NCBI GenBank assembly: GCA_029882975.1
Contig: JAOUJW010000011.1
Span: forward strand, 1 to 64,000
Length of the DNA: 64,000 nt
Direction: 5' to 3'
From: Gammaproteobacteria bacterium
GTDB taxonomy: Bacteria > Pseudomonadota > Gammaproteobacteria > SZUA-152
Both the position numbers and the translations under genes were made by a program. The notes below the pieces were generated by a model that made no database searches, was not told the origin of the DNA, and saw only the letters and a program-made list of their open reading frames with translations. Shown here piece after piece: positions 24,505 through 40,732 of the stretch (its first letter is position 1; each line of letters starts with the position of its first letter).

Positions 24505-25917
24505 TTAATAGGCGTTTTTGTGAATAAAGCCGGTATAAAGGGTCATCAAAATAATCTTCAAATCCAACCACAAGGACCAGTTTTCCACGTAATAAAGATC
24601 ATATTCCACGCGCCGTTTCATCTTGTCCAAGGTATCGGTTTCACCTCGCAGACCGTTGACCTGCGCCCAGCCGGTAATACCGGGTTTTACTTTGTGGCGT
24701 AACATATAGGCATCAATCTGATCTTTATAAAACTCGTTGTGGGCCAAAGCATGAGGCCTGGGTCCTACTATAGACATTCGCCCCTGCAAAACGTTCATAA
24801 ATTGCGGTAATTCATCCAAACTGGTTCGGCGTAAAAAAGCCCCAAAGGGTGTAATACGAGTGTCGCCTTTGGTCGCCTGAGTAACCTCTCCATCGGCTTC
24901 CTCATGTACTGTCATGGTCCGAAATTTATAAATTTTTACCGGACGCCCGTCCCAACCATGGCGCATTTGCTTGAAAAACACTGGCCCCGACGAAGTCAGT
25001 TTCACACCCAAAGCGACGATTGCCAACAAAGGACTCACCAACAATAAAATCAGTAATGCCAGTAATCTGTCTTCCAACTCCTTAATAAAGCGGTTCATCC
25101 CCACCATGGGCGAGGCACTTAAATCAATGACCGGCAAACCGGCCACTTCGGTAATCGAGTGGTTTAACAAGCGAAACCCAAATATACCAGGCACGAAGCG
25201 GATATTGACTGTGCTGTGGCGTAAAGCACTTAATATTTCGACCATTCGTTCTTCTTCGCGTAAAGGCAATGCTAACCAGACTTCGTTGACTTTTTTTTCT
25301 TCTATCAATTTAAACAAATTAGCGGAACTAGGTACTACAGGTATACTATCTATGGCCGACAGCCCATACTCTGAATTTTCGGGACCTACAAATGCCACAA
25401 TATCCAAACCTGTCCATGCAGCATTGCGAATTTTTTCCGCTACATTTAACCCTAACTCCCCTATACCCACAATCACTATGCGTTTATGGTTCCAACCGCG
25501 TTTTCGCATTGCTTTTAATAATTCGTAAAAACCGATTCTAAACACCACCAAGCATACACCGCCGCTGAAAGCCCACATAATCATCCATTGGCGAGAAAAT
25601 ATTATGCTTGTCTTAGTAAACACAGATATTACGACCAAGAGAGTAAGCACTACTATCCAAGCTAACATTACCACTCGAACCTGGTAAACCCAGTTTTTGC
25701 CACGCCAGGAAGTATATATACCGGATGCGGAAAACACGATAAAGGTCAACATTGCGGCGATCAAAAGCGCTGCTTGATAACTAATTGAAAAATCTAAATT
25801 TCCGAAGCGCCAATAGTGAGCTACGCACGCGCTTAGCAAAACGCATATTACATCCAACATTTTGGAGATAAACGACAATGTGCTCGCGTACTCTTGTAAT
25901 ACTCCCCTAGGAATCAT
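24505..25917 (-). CDS. wcaJ: Polyprenyl-phosphate sugar phosphotransferase (WcaJ/PssE type)
   Basis: The initiating enzyme of glycan assembly: transfers a sugar-1-phosphate from a UDP-sugar to undecaprenyl phosphate. 470 aa with four N-terminal membrane helices, a CoA-binding-like central domain (RIVIVGIGELGLNVAEKI), a further helix near 285 and the catalytic C-terminal domain: FFKQMRHGWDGRPVKIYKFRTM, DELPQFMNVLQGRMSIVGPRP and KPGITGWAQVNG. UDP-glucose is the usual substrate of WcaJ-type enzymes; specificity cannot be read from sequence. Last biosynthetic gene of the polysaccharide locus in transcription order. Confidence 0.93.
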   Translation of the reverse strand: MIPRGVLQEYASTLSFISKMLDVICVLLSACVAHYWRFGNLDFSISYQAALLIAAMLTFIVFSASGIYTSWRGKNWVYQVRVVMLAWIVVLTLLVVISVFTKTSIIFSRQWMIMWAFSGGVCLVVFRIGFYELLKAMRKRGWNHKRIVIVGIGELGLNVAEKIRNAAWTGLDIVAFVGPENSEYGLSAIDSIPVVPSSANLFKLIEEKKVNEVWLALPLREEERMVEILSALRHSTVNIRFVPGIFGFRLLNHSITEVAGLPVIDLSASPMVGMNRFIKELEDRLLALLILLLVSPLLAIVALGVKLTSSGPVFFKQMRHGWDGRPVKIYKFRTMTVHEEADGEVTQATKGDTRITPFGAFLRRTSLDELPQFMNVLQGRMSIVGPRPHALAHNEFYKDQIDAYMLRHKVKPGITGWAQVNGLRGETDTLDKMKRRVEYDLYYVENWSLWLDLKIILMTLYTGFIHKNAY

Positions 25918-27616: not shown

Positions 27617-28588
27617 TCAATGACTGCTTATTAGCTTAGCAATAACCTTTTTGTAACATACCCGACAGAATAGTATTAACGGAATTCGGTATATATTCAA
27701 CAGCACATAAATGATATCTTCTCGTAATATTTTGGGCTCAAGTTTATACTTCCCCCGCCAGTGCAAAAATATAAAATAAATACACCAAATCACCGATAAC
27801 TGTGAACTAGTTTCAAATTTCTTAGCTAACTCAGTTTTTCCTAGGTATACCAATGTGTGGTTGGCAATTTTATATCTGTTCGCAAATATTCTTGGCGAGT
27901 ACCTAAGGTTTCTATGGTCGTCATCAGACATGGCAACGATTTTTTTTCTTAGCACCAATTTGTGCGATTCCCCCAACACTATCAACATCATCAATGCTGC
28001 AAATAAATAATAGGAACCACTAAGACCAACTAAAAAGTCTCGATATTTTTCTATTTCAACCCTTTTGGCTATATATGCTGTTATCTTGGGAAACTTAATA
28101 ATGTCACGTACTATCGCCTCTTCTTTTTCTTCAATTTTTATAAACCCATCGAAATCAAATACCAAATTAGATTCTCCGTAACCACCCTCCTTGAAATTAG
28201 AAATACAAACCCCTGGCCGATACTTTTGTATATCCAACACTATATCGTTCAATGTTTCTATAATTACATCATCATCACTGCAATACCAAACATATTCCCC
28301 CTTACTCTCCGTATAACAACTCAACATGTTTGCATCCAGGCCAATATTTTCTTTTTGTTCTACATAAGAAAAATAAAATCCTTTTCGTTCTAATGCCTCC
28401 TTATAATCATGTACCACATGATACGTATTATCCTCAGATGCATTGTTTGCCACCAATATTTCTATACCTAGCCCACCAACCTCTTTAGAAAGGTCCATTT
28501 CAAGGAATTGCTGGAACAACCTACCCAATTTGTCTTCCCTATTGAATGTTGGAACAGCAATGGTTAAAAACGGTATCATATCATCCAC
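27617..28588 (-). CDS. Glycosyltransferase family 2
   Basis: A 323-aa GT-A fold transferase. FLTIAVPTFNREDKLGRLF at the N-terminus, ILVANNASEDNT, and the metal-binding Asp triplet CSDDDVI (about residue 105) are the GT2 signatures. There is no transmembrane segment, though the C-terminus is hydrophobic and basic (about 275-320), suggesting membrane association. It probably adds one sugar of the repeat unit on the cytoplasmic face; donor unknown, and the nearby dideoxyhexose genes make that sugar a candidate. Confidence 0.88.
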   Translation of the reverse strand: MDDMIPFLTIAVPTFNREDKLGRLFQQFLEMDLSKEVGGLGIEILVANNASEDNTYHVVHDYKEALERKGFYFSYVEQKENIGLDANMLSCYTESKGEYVWYCSDDDVIIETLNDIVLDIQKYRPGVCISNFKEGGYGESNLVFDFDGFIKIEEKEEAIVRDIIKFPKITAYIAKRVEIEKYRDFLVGLSGSYYLFAALMMLIVLGESHKLVLRKKIVAMSDDDHRNLRYSPRIFANRYKIANHTLVYLGKTELAKKFETSSQLSVIWCIYFIFLHWRGKYKLEPKILREDIIYVLLNIYRIPLILFCRVCYKKVIAKLISSH

Positions 28589-28613: not shown

Positions 28614-29486
28614 TTAAAGTTCCGTTCTATCAAACGAATCTATATAGGATTTTGAACTAGCATTTAATACAGATACACCACTTTTATCTGCGAAATGCCG
28701 CAATAATTTATAGCTATAATACAGCTTAGCCCAACCAGAAAATACCTGATGCATATCAAACACACCTTTATCTCCTGCGTTAAAAAATGGCGTCAACACG
28801 ACATTTTCGGCGTCATCATAAAAATGATGTTGCCTCACATAAAGCACATTATCCTTTCCCACGAGAATATCCTCATGCCAAGAATGATCCGCCCCAACAA
28901 AATATACCTTCTCATATCCCATATTAATTGCTAAAAAAATTGACGCCACCAGCACATTATAGGGCCGCGGCATCCCAAGCCCTCTTTTATATATCCCGTT
29001 AACCAACCACCCAAACCCGTCCACTGGCGTTCTATTATACAAGTTAATGTTTATATTCGAGTTCGTGCTCAGCTTACTGAATACTTTGCTGCGCCTAGCC
29101 TCTACAGGGATAAAAAAATTTAACTCCCATTTGGTTTTACTGCACATGTATTCTATAAATTTGTCTCGATCTTCTACGCCCTGCTTTAAATTATCATCCC
29201 AAATATCCGGATCTAAAACCACATAGTGGTTTGGCATTATTTCCTCATAGATTTCCGACAAAGCAAAATAGTTGACACAAACAATATCCTTCCCAGCACA
29301 AAGACCAGGATTATTGACCAAATCAATCGAAAGGGACGGCCCATTACCCAGGATAATACATTCCCTCCGCATAGCTTTTCCGCCATCCACTCCTCTCTTC
29401 GACATCACCACGACCAATGCTAGAGAAAAAATGGAATTACCGACTTTATCTAGCCAAGATAGAACTTTTCGAATTACTTCTTTCAT
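28614..29486 (-). CDS. GT42/DUF115-like protein, candidate pseudaminyltransferase
   Basis: A 290-aa protein with a Rossmann-like start CIILGNGPSL, then VCVNYFALSEIY, VVLDPDIW, and later ASIFLAINMGYEKVYFVGADHSWH and VRQHHFYDD. The GNGPSL motif, the AIxxGYxxVYxxGxD block and a following His resemble CST-type GT42 sialyltransferases and DUF115/Maf proteins that handle sialic-like nonulosonates. A role in transferring pseudaminic acid is inferred from this and the pse genes. The listed start overlaps wzx by 41 bp and has no ribosome site; ATGs at 29405 or 29372 (giving a start right before the GNGPSL strand) may be correct. Confidence 0.65.
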   Translation of the reverse strand: MKEVIRKVLSWLDKVGNSIFSLALVVVMSKRGVDGGKAMRRECIILGNGPSLSIDLVNNPGLCAGKDIVCVNYFALSEIYEEIMPNHYVVLDPDIWDDNLKQGVEDRDKFIEYMCSKTKWELNFFIPVEARRSKVFSKLSTNSNININLYNRTPVDGFGWLVNGIYKRGLGMPRPYNVLVASIFLAINMGYEKVYFVGADHSWHEDILVGKDNVLYVRQHHFYDDAENVVLTPFFNAGDKGVFDMHQVFSGWAKLYYSYKLLRHFADKSGVSVLNASSKSYIDSFDRTEL

Positions 29487-30714
29487 AGAATATGAAAACT
29501 GTTTGAGTTAACGAAATAGAAACCATAGATAGCACCATTGACAAAGCAACCCCTAATGCGGCTAGCTTAGGCGTTAATACAACCAATGATACCAACACAC
29601 ATAATAACCCTACATAGTTGCTTATCAATATCTTTACGTCTAACCTACGCACATACAGCGGGAAATAGGCTATGTGCCCGAAACACATCGCACAATTAAA
29701 AACTACGAGAACCCAATAAATCTCTATTTTCTGCCAATATATACTCTTACCCACAAACTCCAGCACTGGGTATATCAAGCCAATCGCCCCTATAGACAGA
29801 ACTACCACAGCAAACAATATTTCTTTTGCCATCCGTTTCATTTTGCTCTTGTATTCTGAATATTCGCCTCTATTATATGCTGCAACTATTTTTGGATACT
29901 GTTGAGCAACAACGCCTGCTTCGATAAAGGACAATATCGCACTAGACATACCCATGAAAAACACATACACACCTACAGCCGCGTCCCCAATATTTATCTT
30001 TAAGAAATATTTATCTGCAATGAATATTCCTCTTAAAGCTAAAGTGCCCGCAAAAAAAAGTAATGCATTCTTCAAACCCCTGCGAATCCAATACCAATCT
30101 ATGCTCCGTCCCCGCACCCCACACCAATCCAAATCCTTATACAAAATACGAGCGGTCAAAAGCATGCTTAATACTGCCCCGATAAACCACCCACTCCAAA
30201 CAGTATCTAACTGCCTATAACTATCATCCGAATACATCAACCCAACAACCACGTACACCCAAGCTCCACCTCTGAGCAACAGTACCAAGTTGGCAAAATT
30301 AGCCCTATGTATCACAACCAACAACCTATAGGATTCTTGAGATAGATGCTCTATTGATAGAATCAAATAAAACCAAGCAATATCCTCCCACTTTAGTAAT
30401 CCTGCAAAAAACACCAAGACCAGAAAAGGTAACACAACTAAATACACGATTACATAAAAAACCACTTGATCCCTGATAACGAAAGCCCACTCACTTTTAT
30501 CCAACGCGAGCATTTCACGAGACGCGTAGGCGTAGAAATCCAGCCCGAGGAAATACAAAGCATAGCCTACAGTTGCCACAAAAACGCCGTACACCCCCAT
30601 TTCTTCGGGGCTCAAATACTTGGCTAGATGAACGACTAAAATAAACTTGCTTATTAACGTAAGCAACCTTAATAATATTCCAACTATTCCACTTTTAAAC
30701 TCTAAGAGCTTCAT
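29446..30714 (-). CDS. wzx: Wzx-type oligosaccharide flippase
   Basis: A 422-aa polytopic membrane protein (about 12 hydrophobic helices) of the polysaccharide-transporter/MOP superfamily. The N-terminus LLRLLTLISKFILVVHLAKYLSPEEMGVYGVF is typical of O-antigen flippases. It would move the lipid-linked repeat unit to the periplasm. Its presence points to Wzx/Wzy-type assembly, although no Wzy polymerase is recognisable in the window. Confidence 0.9.
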   Translation of the reverse strand: MKLLEFKSGIVGILLRLLTLISKFILVVHLAKYLSPEEMGVYGVFVATVGYALYFLGLDFYAYASREMLALDKSEWAFVIRDQVVFYVIVYLVVLPFLVLVFFAGLLKWEDIAWFYLILSIEHLSQESYRLLVVIHRANFANLVLLLRGGAWVYVVVGLMYSDDSYRQLDTVWSGWFIGAVLSMLLTARILYKDLDWCGVRGRSIDWYWIRRGLKNALLFFAGTLALRGIFIADKYFLKINIGDAAVGVYVFFMGMSSAILSFIEAGVVAQQYPKIVAAYNRGEYSEYKSKMKRMAKEILFAVVVLSIGAIGLIYPVLEFVGKSIYWQKIEIYWVLVVFNCAMCFGHIAYFPLYVRRLDVKILISNYVGLLCVLVSLVVLTPKLAALGVALSMVLSMVSISLTQTVFIFYERSNSKSSILAR

Positions 30715-30769: not shown

Positions 30770-31816
30770 TTATTTAATATACTCCCAGCACATAGGCTCT
30801 CCTCGTTCAATGTCTACTTTTGCATATAGACCCAAAATTTCCTCATAGAATTTCGGAGCCAGCCCCATGCCAGGCCTTATTCGTCGAACGTTATCTTTTG
30901 TTATCAATTCCCCTTTCTTAATATCTTTTATTGCATAGATGGATCTCCTGAATTTTACGTTTTCTATTTCAGCAGGCTTCCTCTCATAGCTTGCTTCCCC
31001 TAGAGCTTTCCATGCATTCTTCGCCTCTACACACAAAATTTTTAGTTCATCTGGCTCAAGTGAAAATTCACTATCAGGCCCCTTATCTGCCCTATCTAAG
31101 GTAACATGTTTCTCTATTACGCATGCCCCCAGAGCAACACTTACAACAGATACCGTTGTTCCCAAAGTATGATCCGAAAGTCCGGCAATCACACCAAATG
31201 ATTGAGACAAATCATTTATTGTACGTAAATTTGATTGTTCTATTGGCGCGGGGTAGCTACTAATACAATGCAGAAGTATAAGGTCGTCACATCCATTCTC
31301 TTTAGCTACTTCAACGGCTTCTTGTATTTCGGTATAACTTGCCATACCGGTCGAAATGATCATGGGCTTCCGTGTTTGCGCGACATATTTAATCAGTGGT
31401 AAATCAATCGCTTCAAAAGAAGCTATTTTATAAGCAGGAACATTTAAATCCTCCAAAAAATCCACAGCCGACTCATCAAAAGGGGTGCTAAAACAAGTTA
31501 TACCTACTTTTGACGCATGATCGAACAACTCCTTGTGCCACTCATAGGGTGTTTGTGCCTGCTTATAGAGCTGATACAAATTGTAGCCATTCCACAATCC
31601 ACTATGAATCTGAAAATCTTGTTTATTACAATCAATAGTAATTGTATCTGCAGTATAGGTTTGCAGTTTAACGGCATCCGCCCCCATTTTGGCCGCCATT
31701 TCTACTGTTTCCAACGCCCTTTGTAATTTTCCATTATGATTCGCCGACAATTCCGCGATGATATACGGTGGTTCATTCAACCCAATAGCTCTTCCGTTTA
31801 TTTCTATAGACTTCAT
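30770..31816 (-). CDS. pseI: PseI, pseudaminic acid synthase
   Basis: A 348-aa NeuB-family enzyme condensing 6-deoxy-AltdiNAc with PEP to give pseudaminic acid. YIIAELSANHNG, GADAVKLQTYTADTITID, LLHCISSYPAP, GLSDHTLG and EKHVTLDR are family motifs; a C-terminal SAF domain (about 285-345) is present. The AELSANHNG and LWNGYNLYQLY segments favour PseI over NeuB/LegI. The ATG at 31816 follows GAGGAAAG; a GTG two codons earlier lacks spacing. Confidence 0.93.
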   Translation of the reverse strand: MKSIEINGRAIGLNEPPYIIAELSANHNGKLQRALETVEMAAKMGADAVKLQTYTADTITIDCNKQDFQIHSGLWNGYNLYQLYKQAQTPYEWHKELFDHASKVGITCFSTPFDESAVDFLEDLNVPAYKIASFEAIDLPLIKYVAQTRKPMIISTGMASYTEIQEAVEVAKENGCDDLILLHCISSYPAPIEQSNLRTINDLSQSFGVIAGLSDHTLGTTVSVVSVALGACVIEKHVTLDRADKGPDSEFSLEPDELKILCVEAKNAWKALGEASYERKPAEIENVKFRRSIYAIKDIKKGELITKDNVRRIRPGMGLAPKFYEEILGLYAKVDIERGEPMCWEYIK

Positions 31817-31894
31817 ACGCACACTTTCCTCATCGACTTCACAAATATTGCTTTTGTACTATTTACTCTTTAACGTTCACAATATTCCAGGCCA

Positions 31895-33412
31895 TTATAA
31901 GGTAGAACGTTGATATACATTCCGTTCGCTATCTGAAAACACACACTCAAAACCCAATGAATTGAATATTTTATTGGAGGCAATATTCTGTGTTTTTACC
32001 TGCCCCTTTATTTTTTCAATCGCCCTACTCTCCTCCTTTAATTTTTTTAGTGCCGACCATAAAATAATCTGCCCTATCCCTGCACCTCTATAATTCGCAT
32101 CAACGGAATAACTAATCTCTGCCACTGAATCGATTATATCAAAACGGACTTGGCCAACAGGAATGCTGTTGCACTCAAATATATATAGCAAGCAATTATT
32201 GTTTTTAAGTTTTTTTTCAAACCAATCTTCATGTGCTCCCCTTTCAATCATGTCGGTTTTAAATGCCGAACTTCGAACGACAGGGTCATTAGTCCATTTG
32301 TATAATAGATCTACATCTTTAGCATTGGCACTTCGACATGTCATACTAAGTATATCTACCAATCGTGTAGCGCCAAGCCCATCGCATATGTCTATGGAGT
32401 TTTCAAACATTGAATACCACTTGCTTTTATCAGACACCACGTCTTCAATAATTTCTTTCAAATCCTCCAATTGTTCCCACAAACGAACAGCGCCTCGGGC
32501 TTGTAATTGACAAATATTCTCTTTTTGGTTTTCCGCGATAAACGTCACCAGACTAGGCAGACCCAACACGCATCTCTCCCAAGAAGCTGTACCACCAGAT
32601 CCAATTGATAAGTCTGCTTGCAACATTAACTCCGCCATGTTATCCACTCCAACCAACACTTCCATAGCGACGGGATATTCACGTGAAATATCATTTATTT
32701 CGTCGACATGTGGAGCCCCCTTACCAAGAACAACAACAATTTTTTCTATACTCAGTCCTTTCATCTTAACCAACAACTGCAGTACTTTTAGCGCATAGTT
32801 TCTTTCGTCCATCCCCCCCATGAATATCAATAGAGTTTTTACGCCGTTATACATCTTTCTTTTTCTGAGAGCTTTTTCTCTTAGTGCTAAATACTCAGAC
32901 CGAAGCAACGCGTATTTAGGACCAAGCCTAAACAGGCATGGTTTATCTATATACAAACGATAATCCCCACTATCGACATCCAACGCTGAATTTACTAATA
33001 TGTCGCAATCCAATCTTCTATTTGCCAAGTCATCAATAACCATAATATTTTGCACGTGCGGTCGTAGCATCGCGTGCCATTGATAATCGATTCCGTAGTG
33101 ATCGACAATGAACCAATCAATATTCAAAGCAGCCACTGCATCTATTGTGTCCGATGCATCCTCTGAAAATGAAACGCCAAGCCAATCTTTGTAAGATTCC
33201 AGTGTGCTAACCTGAAACTTCGTTCTATTGATATCCGGAAGGGTAATGAGTGTATGGCCATGTTTTGTAATATAGTAATCTAGATCCAACTGTGTTTCTC
33301 GACAGATGAAGTATATTTTAGCTTCATTTATCGCATCGGCTAATGTCAAACATCGCATAAGATGCCCCAAACCGATGGCTATACTAGCGTCAACACGAAA
33401 CGCTACGTTCAT
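31895..33412 (-). CDS. pseG: Fused PseG-PseH: UDP-sugar hydrolase and N-acetyltransferase
   Basis: A 505-aa bifunctional protein. Residues 1 to about 345 are PseG, the GT-B-like hydrolase that removes UDP from UDP-6-deoxy-AltdiNAc (AIGLGHLMRCLTLADAI, IVDHYGIDYQWH, GSGGTASWERCVLGLP). Residues about 360-505 are a GNAT acetyltransferase with acetyl-CoA loop NYRGAGIGQ (about 440-448), matching PseH, which N-acetylates C4 in the preceding step. No separate pseH is seen, so this C-terminal domain likely supplies it. Overlaps pseF by one base (TGATG). Confidence 0.92.
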   Translation of the reverse strand: MNVAFRVDASIAIGLGHLMRCLTLADAINEAKIYFICRETQLDLDYYITKHGHTLITLPDINRTKFQVSTLESYKDWLGVSFSEDASDTIDAVAALNIDWFIVDHYGIDYQWHAMLRPHVQNIMVIDDLANRRLDCDILVNSALDVDSGDYRLYIDKPCLFRLGPKYALLRSEYLALREKALRKRKMYNGVKTLLIFMGGMDERNYALKVLQLLVKMKGLSIEKIVVVLGKGAPHVDEINDISREYPVAMEVLVGVDNMAELMLQADLSIGSGGTASWERCVLGLPSLVTFIAENQKENICQLQARGAVRLWEQLEDLKEIIEDVVSDKSKWYSMFENSIDICDGLGATRLVDILSMTCRSANAKDVDLLYKWTNDPVVRSSAFKTDMIERGAHEDWFEKKLKNNNCLLYIFECNSIPVGQVRFDIIDSVAEISYSVDANYRGAGIGQIILWSALKKLKEESRAIEKIKGQVKTQNIASNKIFNSLGFECVFSDSERNVYQRSTL

Positions 33413-34113
33413 CAGCTGTCGGCGCTTTTAAAGCACATGGACTGAAACATCAATTCCGCTCTATCCCAGTCTTCTAAAGTATCCAAATCCTGGACCATAT
33501 GTCGGGGCAACACTATGGGTATAGACTCATTAGAATATATGGTTACGTTATTCAAAAATGCAGACTTGGTTCCCCAATAGAATTGGCCGGCATCATGATA
33601 GGTCTCCTCTAAGTCTTGAGATCTGATCATATTATTTTCAGGCCAAATTGCCTCCACACAGCCGCTTGATTCTATTCGAAGCGCCCTTTGTATTGGAAAA
33701 GCAAAGGTGGTAACAGGAAAAACATATGATTTTCCGGAAGTGATCAATTTGTTGTAAGCTTCCTTCAAATACTCCGGTAGTAAAGACGGTGCTGTGGCAT
33801 AGATACAGCAGATGTAATCAACAGAAATACCGCTATCATCGCACCAAGTCAGCGCATGCTTTATCACATCCACAGTTCCTGTGTAATCATCTGATAAGTC
33901 ATGTGGCCGTATAAAAGGCACCTCCGCCCCATAACTTTGGGCAACAAGGGCAATTTCTTCATCGTCCGTAGAAACTATTATCCGATCAAAACAGGAGCAA
34001 TCTATAGCCGCTTGTATAGACCATGCGATGATTGGCTTCCCATGAAAATCTTTTATATTTTTCCTTGGTATTCGTTTACTACCCCCCCTTGCTGGTATCA
34101 AAGCAATATTCAT
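33412..34113 (-). CDS. pseF: PseF, CMP-pseudaminic acid cytidylyltransferase
   Basis: A 233-aa CMP-nonulosonate synthetase activating pseudaminic acid with CTP. The N-terminal ALIPARGGSKRIPRKNIKDFHGKPI is the signature nucleotide-binding region of the CMP-NeuAc synthetase family, and STDDEEIALVAQSYGAEVPFIRP follows. Assigned to the PseF branch because it lies between pseC and pseG/pseI. Overlaps pseC by 4 bp. Confidence 0.92.
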   Translation of the reverse strand: MNIALIPARGGSKRIPRKNIKDFHGKPIIAWSIQAAIDCSCFDRIIVSTDDEEIALVAQSYGAEVPFIRPHDLSDDYTGTVDVIKHALTWCDDSGISVDYICCIYATAPSLLPEYLKEAYNKLITSGKSYVFPVTTFAFPIQRALRIESSGCVEAIWPENNMIRSQDLEETYHDAGQFYWGTKSAFLNNVTIYSNESIPIVLPRHMVQDLDTLEDWDRAELMFQSMCFKSADS

Positions 34114-35267
34114 AATACACTTTGTTTTAAAGCCGTAATAACTTTATCCTGCTCATCCTCCTTAAGACCAGGAAACATCGGCAAGCTAATTGCCTCTTGA
34201 GAGTAGGTTTCCGCCGCGGGATAATCCCCCTTCTTAAAACCTAATTCTCTATAATATGGTTGTGTATGTACTGGTATGTAGTGCAAATTCACAGATATAC
34301 CCAAGCTTCGTAGCTGCATAAATACATCTTTGTGAGACTTATTCATACTCTTCAGGTCCAATCGAATAACATATAGGTGCATCCCTGAATAGCTGTCACT
34401 TGGTCGGTATGGACACCTTATCGGCAAACCCTCTAGCATTTCATCATAGCGATTTGCCAGCGAATGCCTCCTCATGATAAATTCATCCAACCGATTAAGC
34501 TGGCTCTCTCCCAAGGCTGCCTGAATATCCGTCATCCTATAGTTATAACCTAAATGTATTTGCTCGTAGTACCATGGTCCATGACTCGATTCTGTCATTA
34601 TATTTAAATCTCTTGTAATACCATGACTTCGTAGCAAGCACATTTTATCAAATAGTTGCTCATTATTTGTTACAGCCATACCGCCTTCACCGGTAGTGAT
34701 AGATTTTACTGGATGAAAGCTAAAAACCGCAATATCGCTAAATTCGCAACTTCCGATTGGCTTATCTAGGTATTTACCTCCTAAGGCATGGCATGCGTCC
34801 TCGATCACATGGAACCCATACTCCTTTGATAGCGAATAAATCTCTTTCATATCACATGACAAACCGGAAAAATGAACCGTAACTAAAACTTTCGGAAGTG
34901 AGTTGGTTTTGCTTGATTTTATAAGCTTTTTTCGTAAGAGCTCTACGCTAATGTTGCAGGTAACTGAGTCAATGTCTACGAAATCTATATTTGCGCCACA
35001 ATATAGAGCACAATTCGCGGATGCCACAAATGTAATTGGTGAAGTCCAAACCCAGTCACCTCTACCGACACCTAGCGCCAAACAAGAAATATGTAGCGCA
35101 GAAGTGCCGCTGTTAACCGCTACACTGTATTTTGAACCTGTGTATTCTTTCACAGATTTTTCGAATTGAGGAACCGCCTCGCCTTGCGTAAGAAAATCTG
35201 ACTTCAGAACCCTGACAACCGATTCAATATCCTCATCAGAAATGTGTTGACGACCATAAGGTATCAT
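34110..35267 (-). CDS. pseC: PseC, UDP-4-amino-4,6-dideoxy-AltNAc aminotransferase
   Basis: A 385-aa DegT/DnrJ/EryC1-family PLP aminotransferase that aminates the 4-keto product of PseB. The PLP lysine is K188 in FSFHPVKSITTGEGG; IPYGRQHISDEDIESVV, AVNSGTSALHI and NYRMTDIQAALG are family blocks. The intact Lys contrasts with the His in RfbH of the same locus. Confidence 0.94.
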   Translation of the reverse strand: MIPYGRQHISDEDIESVVRVLKSDFLTQGEAVPQFEKSVKEYTGSKYSVAVNSGTSALHISCLALGVGRGDWVWTSPITFVASANCALYCGANIDFVDIDSVTCNISVELLRKKLIKSSKTNSLPKVLVTVHFSGLSCDMKEIYSLSKEYGFHVIEDACHALGGKYLDKPIGSCEFSDIAVFSFHPVKSITTGEGGMAVTNNEQLFDKMCLLRSHGITRDLNIMTESSHGPWYYEQIHLGYNYRMTDIQAALGESQLNRLDEFIMRRHSLANRYDEMLEGLPIRCPYRPSDSYSGMHLYVIRLDLKSMNKSHKDVFMQLRSLGISVNLHYIPVHTQPYYRELGFKKGDYPAAETYSQEAISLPMFPGLKEDEQDKVITALKQSVL

Positions 35268-35897: not shown

Positions 35898-37025
35898 TCA
35901 AGTTCGATCTCGTATTAAAACCCACTCACCTTTGGAATCTTTCTCAAACAAATCATGATTCACAAAGGAATCCATTATTTTCTCGTACTTTTCCAAACTG
36001 ATACCTATTAAATCGCAAAATTCTTTTACGTTATCAGAATCTACTCCACCATCAATGTTCTTTGCTATTTCGAGCGCTTCAGAACGAGATATACGATTGT
36101 TTCGAATCTCTATATTAAGCTGATCGGTTGCTCGCCCATAGCCAAACTTTAGAAATTTAACCCGCTCACGGATATCAATATATTTCATATCACAATTCTC
36201 ATAATCAACCCACGCCCCTTGAGGAGGCTCAACCAAAGCTTGCCAACCCAACTTTTTCACCACTTGTAAATGTACACTTGCATCCCACTTATAGAAGTAG
36301 CCATAAAACAAGCCCAATATTCCTAGTTTTTGAATGTCTTCATCGGATGGAAACTGGAGCATACACAAATCTTCCATGCTAATTTCTTCATCTACCATAT
36401 CCTCTTCACGAAAACCTCGCATCAATCCAAATTCTTGCCGCCATCGTCTATCGATAATCATGCTATCGCGACTTTGAGTCGGCCCACCATATTCAAATTG
36501 AGGATTCTCACCAAATATGACTAAAGGAATATTGAATTTGGCGGCCACATGAAAAGGTACTGTGTAAATCCCTACGTGATTAACCCAATAGTGATCCCCC
36601 ACTATTTCAAATCCTTTCCTAACTAGAGCTCGAACTATTTTGGGGTTAAGAGTAAAATGAACATGATCGACACCTATCTCTTTTAGCACCTCCAAATTGT
36701 GCAGACCGGTATTCGTTTGATCAAATTGATCAAACGTTACTGCCAACGGTCTCATGCCATGAATAACTTTCATCGCATATACCTGCCAAGTACTATCTTT
36801 ACCCCCGCTAACAGGTATAACGCAATCGTACCATCCCCGCGATTTACTCCTCGCGTCGGAGATTATTTCCTTGAACGATTTATCTCTCTGCTCCCAATCA
36901 ATCGCATCTTCTATGCCATGTTTTCTTTCGGCAGACTTGCAAGCATCACAAATTCCTTCCGAGTCAAAAAACAAATCAGGTTTTGTATTTGGAAAAAGAC
37001 ACTTTTTACAGTACAAAATATTCAT
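35898..37025 (-). CDS. pseA: N-acetyl sugar amidotransferase (WbuX/WbpG/PseA family)
   Basis: A 375-aa PP-loop ATP-dependent enzyme that converts a sugar acetamido group to acetamidino using ammonia from a HisH-type glutaminase. N-terminal zinc-type cysteines (CKKCLFP, CDACKSAE) and the PP-loop IPVSGGKDSTWQ are clear, followed by GVDHVHFTLNP and HVGIYTVPFHVA. Inside a complete pse set, the likely product is 5-acetamidino-pseudaminic acid, the PseA-type outcome; an FucNAm- or ManNAmA-type target (WbuX/WbpG) cannot be excluded. Four-base overlap with the hisF paralogue. Confidence 0.88.
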   Translation of the reverse strand: MNILYCKKCLFPNTKPDLFFDSEGICDACKSAERKHGIEDAIDWEQRDKSFKEIISDARSKSRGWYDCVIPVSGGKDSTWQVYAMKVIHGMRPLAVTFDQFDQTNTGLHNLEVLKEIGVDHVHFTLNPKIVRALVRKGFEIVGDHYWVNHVGIYTVPFHVAAKFNIPLVIFGENPQFEYGGPTQSRDSMIIDRRWRQEFGLMRGFREEDMVDEEISMEDLCMLQFPSDEDIQKLGILGLFYGYFYKWDASVHLQVVKKLGWQALVEPPQGAWVDYENCDMKYIDIRERVKFLKFGYGRATDQLNIEIRNNRISRSEALEIAKNIDGGVDSDNVKEFCDLIGISLEKYEKIMDSFVNHDLFEKDSKGEWVLIRDRT

Positions 37026-37774
37026 ATCAACCTCATTGGCAGCCCTTGTTCACTCATATGTTTTTTAATAGTTATAATACTTTCTCCAATCCAGTAAAAT
37101 ATACTGCCCGCCGCAATTGCTGTTGCACCGCTATTTATCGCTTTTACACAATCTTCTTTACTTCCACAACCACCCGCAGCAACTATCGGGACATCTACTG
37201 ACTGGGACACACTCTTTATCAGCCCCAAATCGTAACCATTCATTTTTCCGTCGTTGTCAACTGAATTTAGCAAAATTTCTCCTACCCCCATAGACACCAC
37301 TTTCTGAGCTGTCTCCACTGCGCCCACATCATGAACTATATTGGCTGATTGCGATGCTGCATAGTAGACAGAATTTTCTTTTTTAACATCCAAGGAAAAT
37401 ACAACAGCTTGACGACCGTATTTCTTCGATACTTTTTCAATTAAACTCGGATCACTATAGAAAGCGCTATTTATCACCACTTTATCAGCACCTGATCTAA
37501 ACAGTCTGTCCGCGTCTTCAACAGAGCGAACCCCTCCTCCTACTGACAATGGCATTACACATTGAGCTGCTAACCTCTTAATCAAGTCTTCATTAATTCG
37601 TCCGGATTTATAGGCATCTATATCGACGATAACCATTTCATCAGCCATACGACTGGAAAATACTTTAACATTAGTGATGGAATCACCCACCATGCGCGCA
37701 TCATCGAACTGCACAGTTTTAACAATGGAACTCCCGCGAACAAGCAAGATTGGAATGATACGTATTTTGAGCAT
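37022..37774 (-). CDS. hisF: HisF paralogue for sugar amidination (WbuZ type)
   Basis: A 250-aa TIM-barrel HisF relative. The catalytic Asp11 of true IGP synthase is replaced by Leu (IIPILLVRG, L11), while the second Asp (FSLDVKK, D129) and the phosphate/ammonia-channel framework (SVGGGVRSVEDADRLFRSGADKVVIN) remain. Loss of Asp11 argues against imidazole synthesis; WbuZ-like proteins with such changes sit with amidotransferases and are thought to channel ammonia. Overlaps hisH by one base and the amidotransferase by four. Confidence 0.88.
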   Translation of the reverse strand: MLKIRIIPILLVRGSSIVKTVQFDDARMVGDSITNVKVFSSRMADEMVIVDIDAYKSGRINEDLIKRLAAQCVMPLSVGGGVRSVEDADRLFRSGADKVVINSAFYSDPSLIEKVSKKYGRQAVVFSLDVKKENSVYYAASQSANIVHDVGAVETAQKVVSMGVGEILLNSVDNDGKMNGYDLGLIKSVSQSVDVPIVAAGGCGSKEDCVKAINSGATAIAAGSIFYWIGESIITIKKHMSEQGLPMRLI

Positions 37775-38406
37775 TATATATTCTTGAGATGAACAAAGTT
37801 TTTCAGCAATTTCAATCCGGCTTTTTGGCTTTTTTCCGGATGAAATTGCACCCCGAAAACATTTTTTTTCTGGAATGCCGCTACTATATTCTTATTGCAG
37901 AAACGAACATAAGAGCATTGCACATCCTCTCTTACAACGGAATGATAACTATGCACAAAGTAAAATGAAGACCCCAGCTCCACCCCCTCAAACAAAGTTT
38001 GCTCCAACCCGTTAAAACCCTCCATATTGTTCCACCCCATATGAGGGACTCGACACTTACCGGAAGATTCTAGCGGTACTACGTTACCTTGCACCAAATC
38101 CAATCCTGAAGTTCTACCATCCTCATAACCCTCAGAAAGAGCTAATTGCATCCCCAAACATATACCTAACAACAACCCTCCTTGATCAACATGACTTTTT
38201 ACATGTTCTGAGAACCCTAAACTATTAAGGTTTTTCATACCTTTAGGATAAGCACCAACACCCGGCAATACTATCCTATCAATCCCTACTAATTCATGAG
38301 GCTTCGTTGCGACCACCACATTACAATCTAAAGCTTGAAGTGCATTGACAATGGAAAATATATTTCCAACGCCATAATCTATCACACCTACCGATACACT
38401 ATTCAT
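37774..38406 (-). CDS. hisH: HisH paralogue, glutaminase for sugar amidination (WbuY type)
   Basis: A 210-aa class I glutamine amidotransferase. IDYGVGNIFSIVNAL, nucleophile [18 protein letters not shown] and the catalytic FGVQFHPEKSQ are intact, so it should release ammonia from glutamine. With the HisF paralogue directly downstream it presumably supplies ammonia to the WbuX/PseA amidotransferase. No other his genes are nearby apart from hisC far away. Confidence 0.88.
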   Translation of the reverse strand: MNSVSVGVIDYGVGNIFSIVNALQALDCNVVVATKPHELVGIDRIVLPGVGAYPKGMKNLNSLGFSEHVKSHVDQGGLLLGICLGMQLALSEGYEDGRTSGLDLVQGNVVPLESSGKCRVPHMGWNNMEGFNGLEQTLFEGVELGSSFYFVHSYHSVVREDVQCSYVRFCNKNIVAAFQKKNVFGVQFHPEKSQKAGLKLLKNFVHLKNI

Positions 38407-38424: not shown

Positions 38425-39429
<1,005 letters not shown>

Positions 39430-39517: not shown

Positions 39518-40732
39518 TCAAATCATTGAACTCAACCTAGACTCAAAACTCGTCAGTACAGTTTCTTTATCAAGATTACTTTCAGCATAATGTCTGGCAT
39601 TTCTACCCAGATCATTCCTAAGCTCTTGATTATTCGAAAGTTCCAAAATAGCCCTGACAAACGCTTCAAGATCTGCGGGTGGCGTTACTATACCGCAGCC
39701 CTGTAAAATCCTCCACACCTGGGTGTTCTCCTTAGCCGTCGCAACGCATGGTTTACCACTGGCCATAATTCCCGATAGCTTGGACGGCATTACCAAATCT
39801 GCTACATCGTCACGTTGTGGCAATAAATGAATATCTGCCGTGTTCAGAAGATCATTCAATTTTTCTACAGGCTGGAGTGGCAGCCAATACACTGTCGGTA
39901 GATCGCCTGCGTACTGACGTAACTTTTTGTAAACCGCGCCTTGTCCACACATTAAGAATACGATGTTTCTATTTTTTAATTCCTTTGCTGCATCAATAAC
40001 TATTTCCAACCCTTGCTTCTCACCAAAATTTCCAGAGTATACTGCAACAACTGCCCCTTCCTCCAAGTTCAATGATTGCCTTAAGTCCGATATTGTTTCC
40101 ATCGGTTTAATTGTTTCGCAATCAACCCAATTTGGGAAATACACTTGATTGTCTACTTTAACACCTTTAGCCTCTATTCTTTTTTGCATATTTTTGGAAA
40201 TCGTAGATACAATATGGAATTTGCGCACTAGATTTCTCTCTAACCAATAAGCCATACTTACGACAACTTTATTTTTAATGATCCCTAAATCCACAGCTGC
40301 GTCAACTTCCAAATCTTGAACATGCAACCAGGTTTTGATTTTAAAAAATCGAGCCGCGAATAGAACTACAGGCGCACAAAACAAAGGTGGTTCGGTTAGG
40401 AAAACAACATTCTTTTCTTTCCGAGCTTGCAATAGGATAATCGGCAATGAACTAATTGCGAAGCTGAGCAAATGAAAAATTCGCTTAATTCCATTTACAT
40501 TCTTAGGAACCCAAATCGGGCATCGAATCACACACTCTGAAAGATGCCTTGCCTCAGAATACCAAAACTTTCGAAAACCTGACCATACTTCCCAATTTGG
40601 ATAGTATGGTGGTGTAGTGACTACTGTTACCTCGTGTCCTTTTGATACTAACCATTCAACTAATTCTCCGCTGTATTTGCCAATCCCTGTAAGTTCAGGA
40701 GTATAATTTAGAGAAACCAACAGTATTTTCAT
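39518..40732 (-). CDS. Glycosyltransferase family 4 (WcaI/WbuB-like)
   Basis: A 404-aa GT-B transferase: N-terminal LVSLNYTPELTGIGKYSGELVEWL, VVTTPPYYPNW, and C-terminal donor site GNFGEKQGLEIVIDAAKEL and PSKLSGIMASGKPCVATAKE. A hydrophobic central helix (about 95-125) suggests membrane association, as in WcaI/WbuB fucosyl- or FucNAc-transferases. Donor unknown. Four-base overlap with the FkbM gene. Confidence 0.9.
   Translation of the reverse strand: MKILLVSLNYTPELTGIGKYSGELVEWLVSKGHEVTVVTTPPYYPNWEVWSGFRKFWYSEARHLSECVIRCPIWVPKNVNGIKRIFHLLSFAISSLPIILLQARKEKNVVFLTEPPLFCAPVVLFAARFFKIKTWLHVQDLEVDAAVDLGIIKNKVVVSMAYWLERNLVRKFHIVSTISKNMQKRIEAKGVKVDNQVYFPNWVDCETIKPMETISDLRQSLNLEEGAVVAVYSGNFGEKQGLEIVIDAAKELKNRNIVFLMCGQGAVYKKLRQYAGDLPTVYWLPLQPVEKLNDLLNTADIHLLPQRDDVADLVMPSKLSGIMASGKPCVATAKENTQVWRILQGCGIVTPPADLEAFVRAILELSNNQELRNDLGRNARHYAESNLDKETVLTSFESRLSSMI

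Follow-up and report, generated by a model that had tools for sequence, protein, structure and literature searches.

A family of predicted Cst/Maf-like proteins accompanies nonulosonate genes and includes a probable pseudaminic acid transferase

Which enzyme attaches pseudaminic acid (Pse) in a polysaccharide locus that appears equipped to make its activated form? The CMP-Pse and CMP-legionaminate (CMP-Leg) pathways are well known; few transferases using them have been identified, and this shortage blocks both surface-antigen annotation and enzymatic synthesis. The question arises in the window, the 64,000-nucleotide stretch of gammaproteobacterial DNA analysed here, where a single open reading frame (ORF) very probably encodes the protein that attaches Pse to a surface glycan. 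The strongest line of evidence for its function is gene context across a protein family that we define below.

The candidate lies within a long run of polysaccharide genes. This minus-strand run, from about 48.1 to 24.5 kb, opens with genes of the rmlBACD type and a CDP-glucose branch that includes RfbH (41.5-44.7 kb); next come an FkbM methyltransferase, a WcaI-type GT4 and pseB. HisH-, HisF- and WbuX-like genes follow, then a methyltransferase gene and, after it, pseC, pseF, the pseG-pseH fusion, pseI and the wzx-like gene. Beyond the candidate itself lie the GT2, an RmlC-like gene, one for a sugar dehydratase/epimerase and, last, the WcaJ-type initiating transferase. The features on which the argument draws are:

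39518..40732, minus strand: WcaI-type GT4 glycosyltransferase (NF007640, 522 bits)
38425..39426, minus strand: PseB dehydratase (TIGR03589, 554 bits)
35898..38406, minus strand: WbuX-type amidotransferase with HisF- and HisH-like partners (TIGR03573, 327 bits; PF00977, PF00117)
34110..35267, minus strand: PseC aminotransferase (TIGR03588, 551 bits)
33412..34113, minus strand: PseF, CMP-Pse synthetase (TIGR03584, 331 bits)
31895..33412, minus strand: PseG-PseH fusion, 505 aa (TIGR03590, 269 bits; TIGR03585, 49.2 bits)
30770..31822, minus strand: PseI, pseudaminic acid synthase (TIGR03586, 525 bits)
29446..30714, minus strand: Wzx-like flippase (PF01943, 26.8 bits, slightly below the 28.2 cut-off)
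28614..29486, minus strand: candidate CMP-pseudaminate transferase, an ORF of 290 aa with an ATG start
27617..28588, minus strand: GT2 glycosyltransferase (PF00535, 55 bits)
24505..25917, minus strand: WcaJ-type undecaprenyl-phosphate sugar-1-phosphate transferase (TIGR03023, 559 bits)

The first-pass annotation had described a complete CMP-Pse set with no second obvious nonulosonate transferase, and both statements hold. NCBIfam equivalogs score above cut-off for PseB, PseC, PseF, PseG and PseI; PseH, the C-terminal part of the PseG-PseH fusion, falls below its cut-off of 93.1 bits. When the cluster proteins were scanned with Pfam and NCBIfam, the only glycosyltransferases returned were the GT2, the WcaI-type GT4 and the WcaJ-type enzyme. 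As annotated, the WbuX/HisF/HisH genes between pseB and pseC probably place an amidino group on Pse, a step for which we take Campylobacter jejuni PseA to be the analogue. Wzx and the initiating transferase are both present in 24505-48096 (minus strand). None of the ORFs listed for that interval is evidently Wzy-like; such a polymerase could be encoded at another site, or the glycan could consist of one unit only.

The candidate ORF carries three recognizable blocks. Its start overlaps the wzx-like ORF by 41 bases, and 25 bases separate its end from the GT2 ORF. The first helix (residues 2-28) is mildly hydrophobic. The blocks are:

29331..29348, minus strand: GNGPSL, residues 47-52, in the loop behind the first strand
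28878..28895, minus strand: GADHSW, residues 198-203
28815..28826, minus strand: HFYD, residues 221-224

Besides GNGPSL and HFYD the protein carries AINMGYEKVYFVGADHSWHED, and residues 186-198 read AINMGYEKVYFVG, followed by ADHSWHED (199-206). The GNGPSL, hydrophobic and acidic/His elements singled out by the first-pass annotation are thus all present in this ORF. A single copy of GxDH-x19-HFYD is present in the window, against none in 100 shuffles.

Searched alone, the candidate falls in no curated family. Its best Pfam match was MptE-like/DUF115 (PF01973) at 24.6 bits, below the gathering cut-off of 34.6, followed by a weaker match to DUF5496 (E 0.019); NCBIfam gave nothing at E 0.1, and phmmer against the PDB gave no meaningful match. 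PF06002 (CST-I) was absent among its Pfam families at E up to 1, and GT29, GT42 and GT52 were not among its Pfam matches, taking the Pfam models for GT29 and GT52 to be those we assigned; we know of no Pfam model for GT97. Of the profile links raised earlier, the one to DUF115 stands as a sub-threshold match, and those to GT42 and GT52 drop out at this level. Across 229 same-class genomes, PF06002 matched one fragment, below cut-off.

A spaced motif opened up the family. With the candidate alone, protein-based scans found no relatives in genome contigs or in viral contigs, small alignments or a partial relative found none in viral contigs, and a scan of 57 relatives' and 369 same-class genomes returned only the candidate itself. 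The spacing G-x-D-H-x19-H-F-Y-D is preserved in a partial homologue, 28.7% identical over 122 residues, from a record of gut origin. Scanning the DNA of named genome contigs for this pattern gave at least 80 loci, at least 66 of them clear relatives, 25-43% identical to the candidate and typically about 290-300 aa long; we discarded 14 of the 80 loci listed, L017, L025 and L065 among them, as chance hits or frames of no relation. Viral contigs gave one chance match, with an internal stop. The relatives come mainly from Bacteroidota, and also from Melioribacter (Ignavibacteriota), Geotalea (Thermodesulfobacteriota) and Marinobacter (Pseudomonadota). The top-scoring relative among the matches listed, from Melioribacter (L030, 39% identity), lies with PseB, PseC, PseG, PseH and PseI.

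By sequence, the GADHSW/HFYD proteins form a coherent family. In an alignment of 63 rows, which omits three short sequences (L031, L033, L052) and one long one (L076), N72, P85, G198, D200, H201, H221-D224, N275 and D283 are invariant. Conservation of the GxDH and HFYD residues in 63/63 rows is by selection, because they belong to the search pattern; the remaining invariant columns lie outside it. Wherever a row covers them (61 rows), N48, G49 and P50 are likewise invariant. With 11 columns invariant in 63 aligned relatives, the motif set is no chance pattern. The family signature combines the search criterion, G-x-D-H-x19-H-F-Y-D, with two elements independent of the search, GNGPS and a C-terminal SxID-A/S-F, and the candidate carries all of it. 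The family is rare, since a draw of 148 Bacteroidota genomes contained it in only one, the centre of the draw itself. It is also apparently undescribed so far: the open-access literature, which was the scope of our search, yielded no description, and an existing CAZy number is possible.

Family-level comparisons reveal the likeness to sialyltransferases that the single sequence conceals. PF01973 matches 47 of 63 members (E <=0.01) and CST-I (PF06002) one of 63 (E 1.1e-4). For a profile built from the 63 relatives, the best solved chains were Cst-I and Cst-II (GT42), at E 2.7e-4 to 0.004. The alignment spans GNGPSL, which pairs with GNGPSL of Cst-I/II, and the GxD block, where D200 aligns with the Asp of the Cst-I/II GID.

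The predicted fold is Cst/Maf-like. An AlphaFold2 model of the candidate (mean pLDDT 94, pTM 0.92) gave Foldseek matches at E < 0.001 that include human sialyltransferase ST8SiaIII, Maf and Methanocaldococcus jannaschii HPPK, with query TM-scores of 0.34-0.47. On realignment, Maf 5mu5 ranked first (Z 13.5, rmsd 4.0, 198 aligned residues), ahead of Cst-I 2p56 (Z 11.2, rmsd 3.7, 172 aligned) and Cst-II 1ro8 (Z 11.1, rmsd 4.2, 189 aligned). SteA, a cell-division regulator and no transferase, ties with the Cst enzymes (Z 11.0, rmsd 3.7, 163 aligned). Pasteurella multocida sialyltransferase 9c08 (Z 10.5, rmsd 4.1, 176 aligned) and the M. jannaschii HPPK, MptE, a pterin kinase (Z 10.5, rmsd 4.2, 169 aligned), follow, and animal sialyltransferases reach Z of about 7.3-8.3. 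The resemblance to CST-II proposed from the motifs thus extends to the modelled fold, but because SteA and HPPK score alike, the fold by itself leaves function unsettled.

Gene context ties the family to nonulosonate synthesis. We searched 45 member-holding genomes whole for the NeuB family, the GADHSW/HFYD family and the flippase PF01943; they were hand-picked from the 66 relatives after their 8-kb contexts had been seen, mainly avoiding short contigs. Each genome has one family gene. NeuB lies within 5 kb of it in 28 of 45 genomes, within 10 kb in 34 and within 20 kb in 37; random placement would put about 0.8 of 45 family genes near NeuB. Flippase genes served as a control, one that takes in MATE/MurJ-like genes lying outside polysaccharide loci: among those listed, NeuB was within 20 kb in 20/150 rows, falling to 4/132 for flippases more than 30 kb from the family gene in the same genomes. 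The contrast between 37/45 and 4/132 gives a Fisher p of 9e-26 when genes are treated as independent despite shared ancestry. Inside individual loci, the closest detected glycosyltransferase to NeuB is the family gene in 16 of the 19 cases that could be tested (9.2 expected, p 0.0013). The test is crude and takes in loci where another GT2/GT4-type gene was detected; by it, the other 15 of the 34 NeuB loci show no further glycosyltransferase. Co-presence per genome (NeuB in 44/45 member genomes versus 103/148 evenly drawn Bacteroidota) is weak evidence, because NeuB is common in Bacteroidota. Among the 21 relatives outside the genome test, the stored stretch holds a nonulosonate-pathway match for 15 and none for L021, L031, L047, L055, L067 and L082.

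The family appears to serve several nonulosonates: Pse, Leg, Sps-like sugars and products of unassigned NeuB pathways. We typed loci by best matches to query genes from the window, from Leg-type loci and from rhizobia within about 10 kb, at thresholds that we set ourselves. The 45 loci plus the window divide into 12 Pse (window included), 12 SpsE/F-like, 7 Leg, 7 other NeuB and 8 with none, where the Pse labels of L023 and L086 are based on PseB, or PseB plus PseC, alone. The eight family genes with no type in this scheme vary in their surroundings: NeuB stands 11.7 kb from L059; L091 is close to genes of the CMP-synthetase and NeuC kinds; contig ends cut short the view around L022, L058 and L060; for L037 and L043 the only NeuB is distant or on a separate contig; and the whole genome of L084, a divergent Alistipes member, is without NeuB. 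Within 20 kb, NeuB is absent for 8 of the 45. Mapping the five locus labels onto the family tree takes 14 changes, compared with 27.6 after shuffling; donor type is therefore inherited yet repeatedly changed. The window falls in a mostly Pse/Leg part, at an exact position that is poorly supported. This coherent family, and its company with several nonulosonate pathways, goes beyond what the first-pass annotation had proposed.

The evidence makes a specific role highly probable: the candidate would be a single-domain GT42/Maf-like CMP-Pse transferase that adds Pse to a lipid-linked O-antigen or capsule unit before Wzx export. The ORF, the Pse pathway, the coherence of the family, the predicted fold and the family-wide NeuB linkage are the observations behind this reading; donor, acceptor and chemistry are our reconstruction. 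CMP-Pse from the neighbouring pse genes, probably in an amidino form, would be the donor. CMP would bind at GNGPSL and N72, behind the first and second strands, positions that we take to correspond to Cst-II N9 and N31. D200 and H201 together with HFYD would form the catalytic region, with D200, H201 and H221 taking part in catalysis. The HFYD His is a candidate catalytic residue, and the general base would be H201 or H221, in place of Cst-II H188, presumably its counterpart. The first helix may tether the enzyme to the inner membrane, where the acceptor would be an undecaprenyl-linked unit awaiting flipping. The anomeric carbon would be inverted, as in GT42, giving the opposite anomer to the one made by the retaining GT118 enzyme KpsS1.

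The cluster and the fold each suggest other roles for the protein. The GT2 (27617-28588) and the WcaI-type GT4 (39518-40732) are both real glycosyltransferases, and sugars of the dTDP-rhamnose type and derived from CDP-glucose are further products of the cluster, so that one of these two enzymes might add Pse while the candidate transfers another sugar. We consider this unlikely: the candidate's whole family tracks nonulosonate genes over several pathway types, and to our knowledge neither the GT2 nor the GT4 class uses CMP-nonulosonates. The Cst profile match, the Maf/Cst fold and the NeuB linkage together support the earlier proposal that this gene is the best candidate for adding Pse.

Structure raises two further readings. 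Since Maf is the top structural match, the candidate might glycosylate proteins as Maf does, adding Pse to them instead of to a lipid-linked glycan. That seems a shade less probable again, because the protein lacks Maf's other domains (290 versus 632 aa), sits between wzx and the GT2 in a polysaccharide cluster, and shares its genome with an 850-aa Maf beside flagellins and legionaminate genes. The name of its best Pfam family and the match to M. jannaschii HPPK would make it a 6-hydroxymethylpterin diphosphokinase, a reading to which we give almost no weight: folate and pterin genes are absent nearby, the relatives follow nonulosonate genes, and the best solved relatives of the family profile are sialyltransferases and not pterin kinases. 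We rejected it on gene context. The reading as a CMP-Pse transferase acting on a lipid-linked unit is the one we carry forward.

The candidate's family is separate from GT42 and Maf while sharing features of both. Campylobacter Cst-I and Cst-II (GT42) resemble it in the GNGPSL start, in the GxD block past a hydrophobic strand, in fold (Z about 11) and presumably in using a CMP-nonulosonate donor. Unlike them, the candidate does not match PF06002, as only one relative in 63 does, and their alignment with the family profile, which ends at the GxD block, does not show the GADHSW...HFYD signature. Maf proteins (Maf_flag10, with central PF01973) provide the best structural match; the candidate is a single domain where the solved Maf chain has 632 aa, and it lies in a polysaccharide locus, not a flagellar one. 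The GT42/DUF115 features noted earlier thus stand in profile and fold, and membership of either group does not, PF06002 being unmatched, PF01973 below cut-off and the protein single-domain and non-flagellar. The central PF01973 domain of Maf is itself described as Cst-II-like (PMC11339370).

Two known Pse transferases appear to be of other kinds. KpsS1 of Acinetobacter baumannii (GT118) is described as a KpsS-related retaining enzyme that transfers Pse (PMC12887879). It shares with the candidate Pse transfer, which is presumed for the latter, and the KpsS/GT118-type Pfam family PF05159 (Capsule_synth) has no match in the whole genome. GtfS of Tannerella forsythia transfers a Pse or Leg derivative and belongs to a Bacteroidota Pse cluster (PMC6120980, PMC6388019); it has 445 aa and is described as of GT-B type. 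By that length and fold class it would belong to a different family, and on the same published description we rejected it as a known founder of the GADHSW/HFYD family.

The genome appears to divide two nonulosonates between two destinations. Its Maf (850 aa, PF01973 131 bits) is encoded on another contig with flagellins; aligned with the candidate's family by hhalign, it covers 85 columns only, at a probability of 22%. That stretch (L005:3373-13103, contig C19 of the same genome) holds two flagellins, Maf, LegB, LegC and NeuC-, NeuB- and PglD-like genes, a separate flagellar glycosylation island. The arrangement suggests that Maf transfers Leg to flagellin and that the candidate transfers Pse to an envelope glycan.

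A broader interpretation follows for the family as a whole, and we lean towards it with some reserve. Its at least 66 sequences from Bacteroidota, Ignavibacteriota, Thermodesulfobacteriota and Pseudomonadota would make up a general class of single-domain enzyme that transfers nonulosonates from CMP donors to envelope glycans and has repeatedly switched donors among Pse, Leg, sugars of Sps type and NeuB products not yet described. GT42 and the catalytic domain of Maf would have diverged from this stand-alone relative or in parallel with it. The family would form a third, simpler branch linking stand-alone GT42 sialyltransferases and flagellar Maf. Its signature would allow the transferase gene to be predicted in many nonulosonate clusters, and its members would provide an enzyme panel with different donors.

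More distant relatives extend the pattern in part. Two proteins encoded on rhizobial plasmids (21% identity) have, a few genes away, a NeuB synthase together with a cytidylyltransferase and a gene resembling pseG; the one compared reaches an hhalign probability of 98.8%. Among other phylum hits, L198 is of the rhizobial type and has nonulosonate genes, and L200 has Leg-type genes alongside (hhalign 53%, 25 columns only). A distant relative in a Pse cluster (L199:9197-9983) appears broken by a stop codon. The wider superfamily may hold other specificities, because L201, at an hhalign probability of 97.3%, lacks a nonulosonate synthase in its vicinity. The gene at that locus (L201:8956-9798), MptE-like with GVDHSF, adjoins polysaccharide genes.
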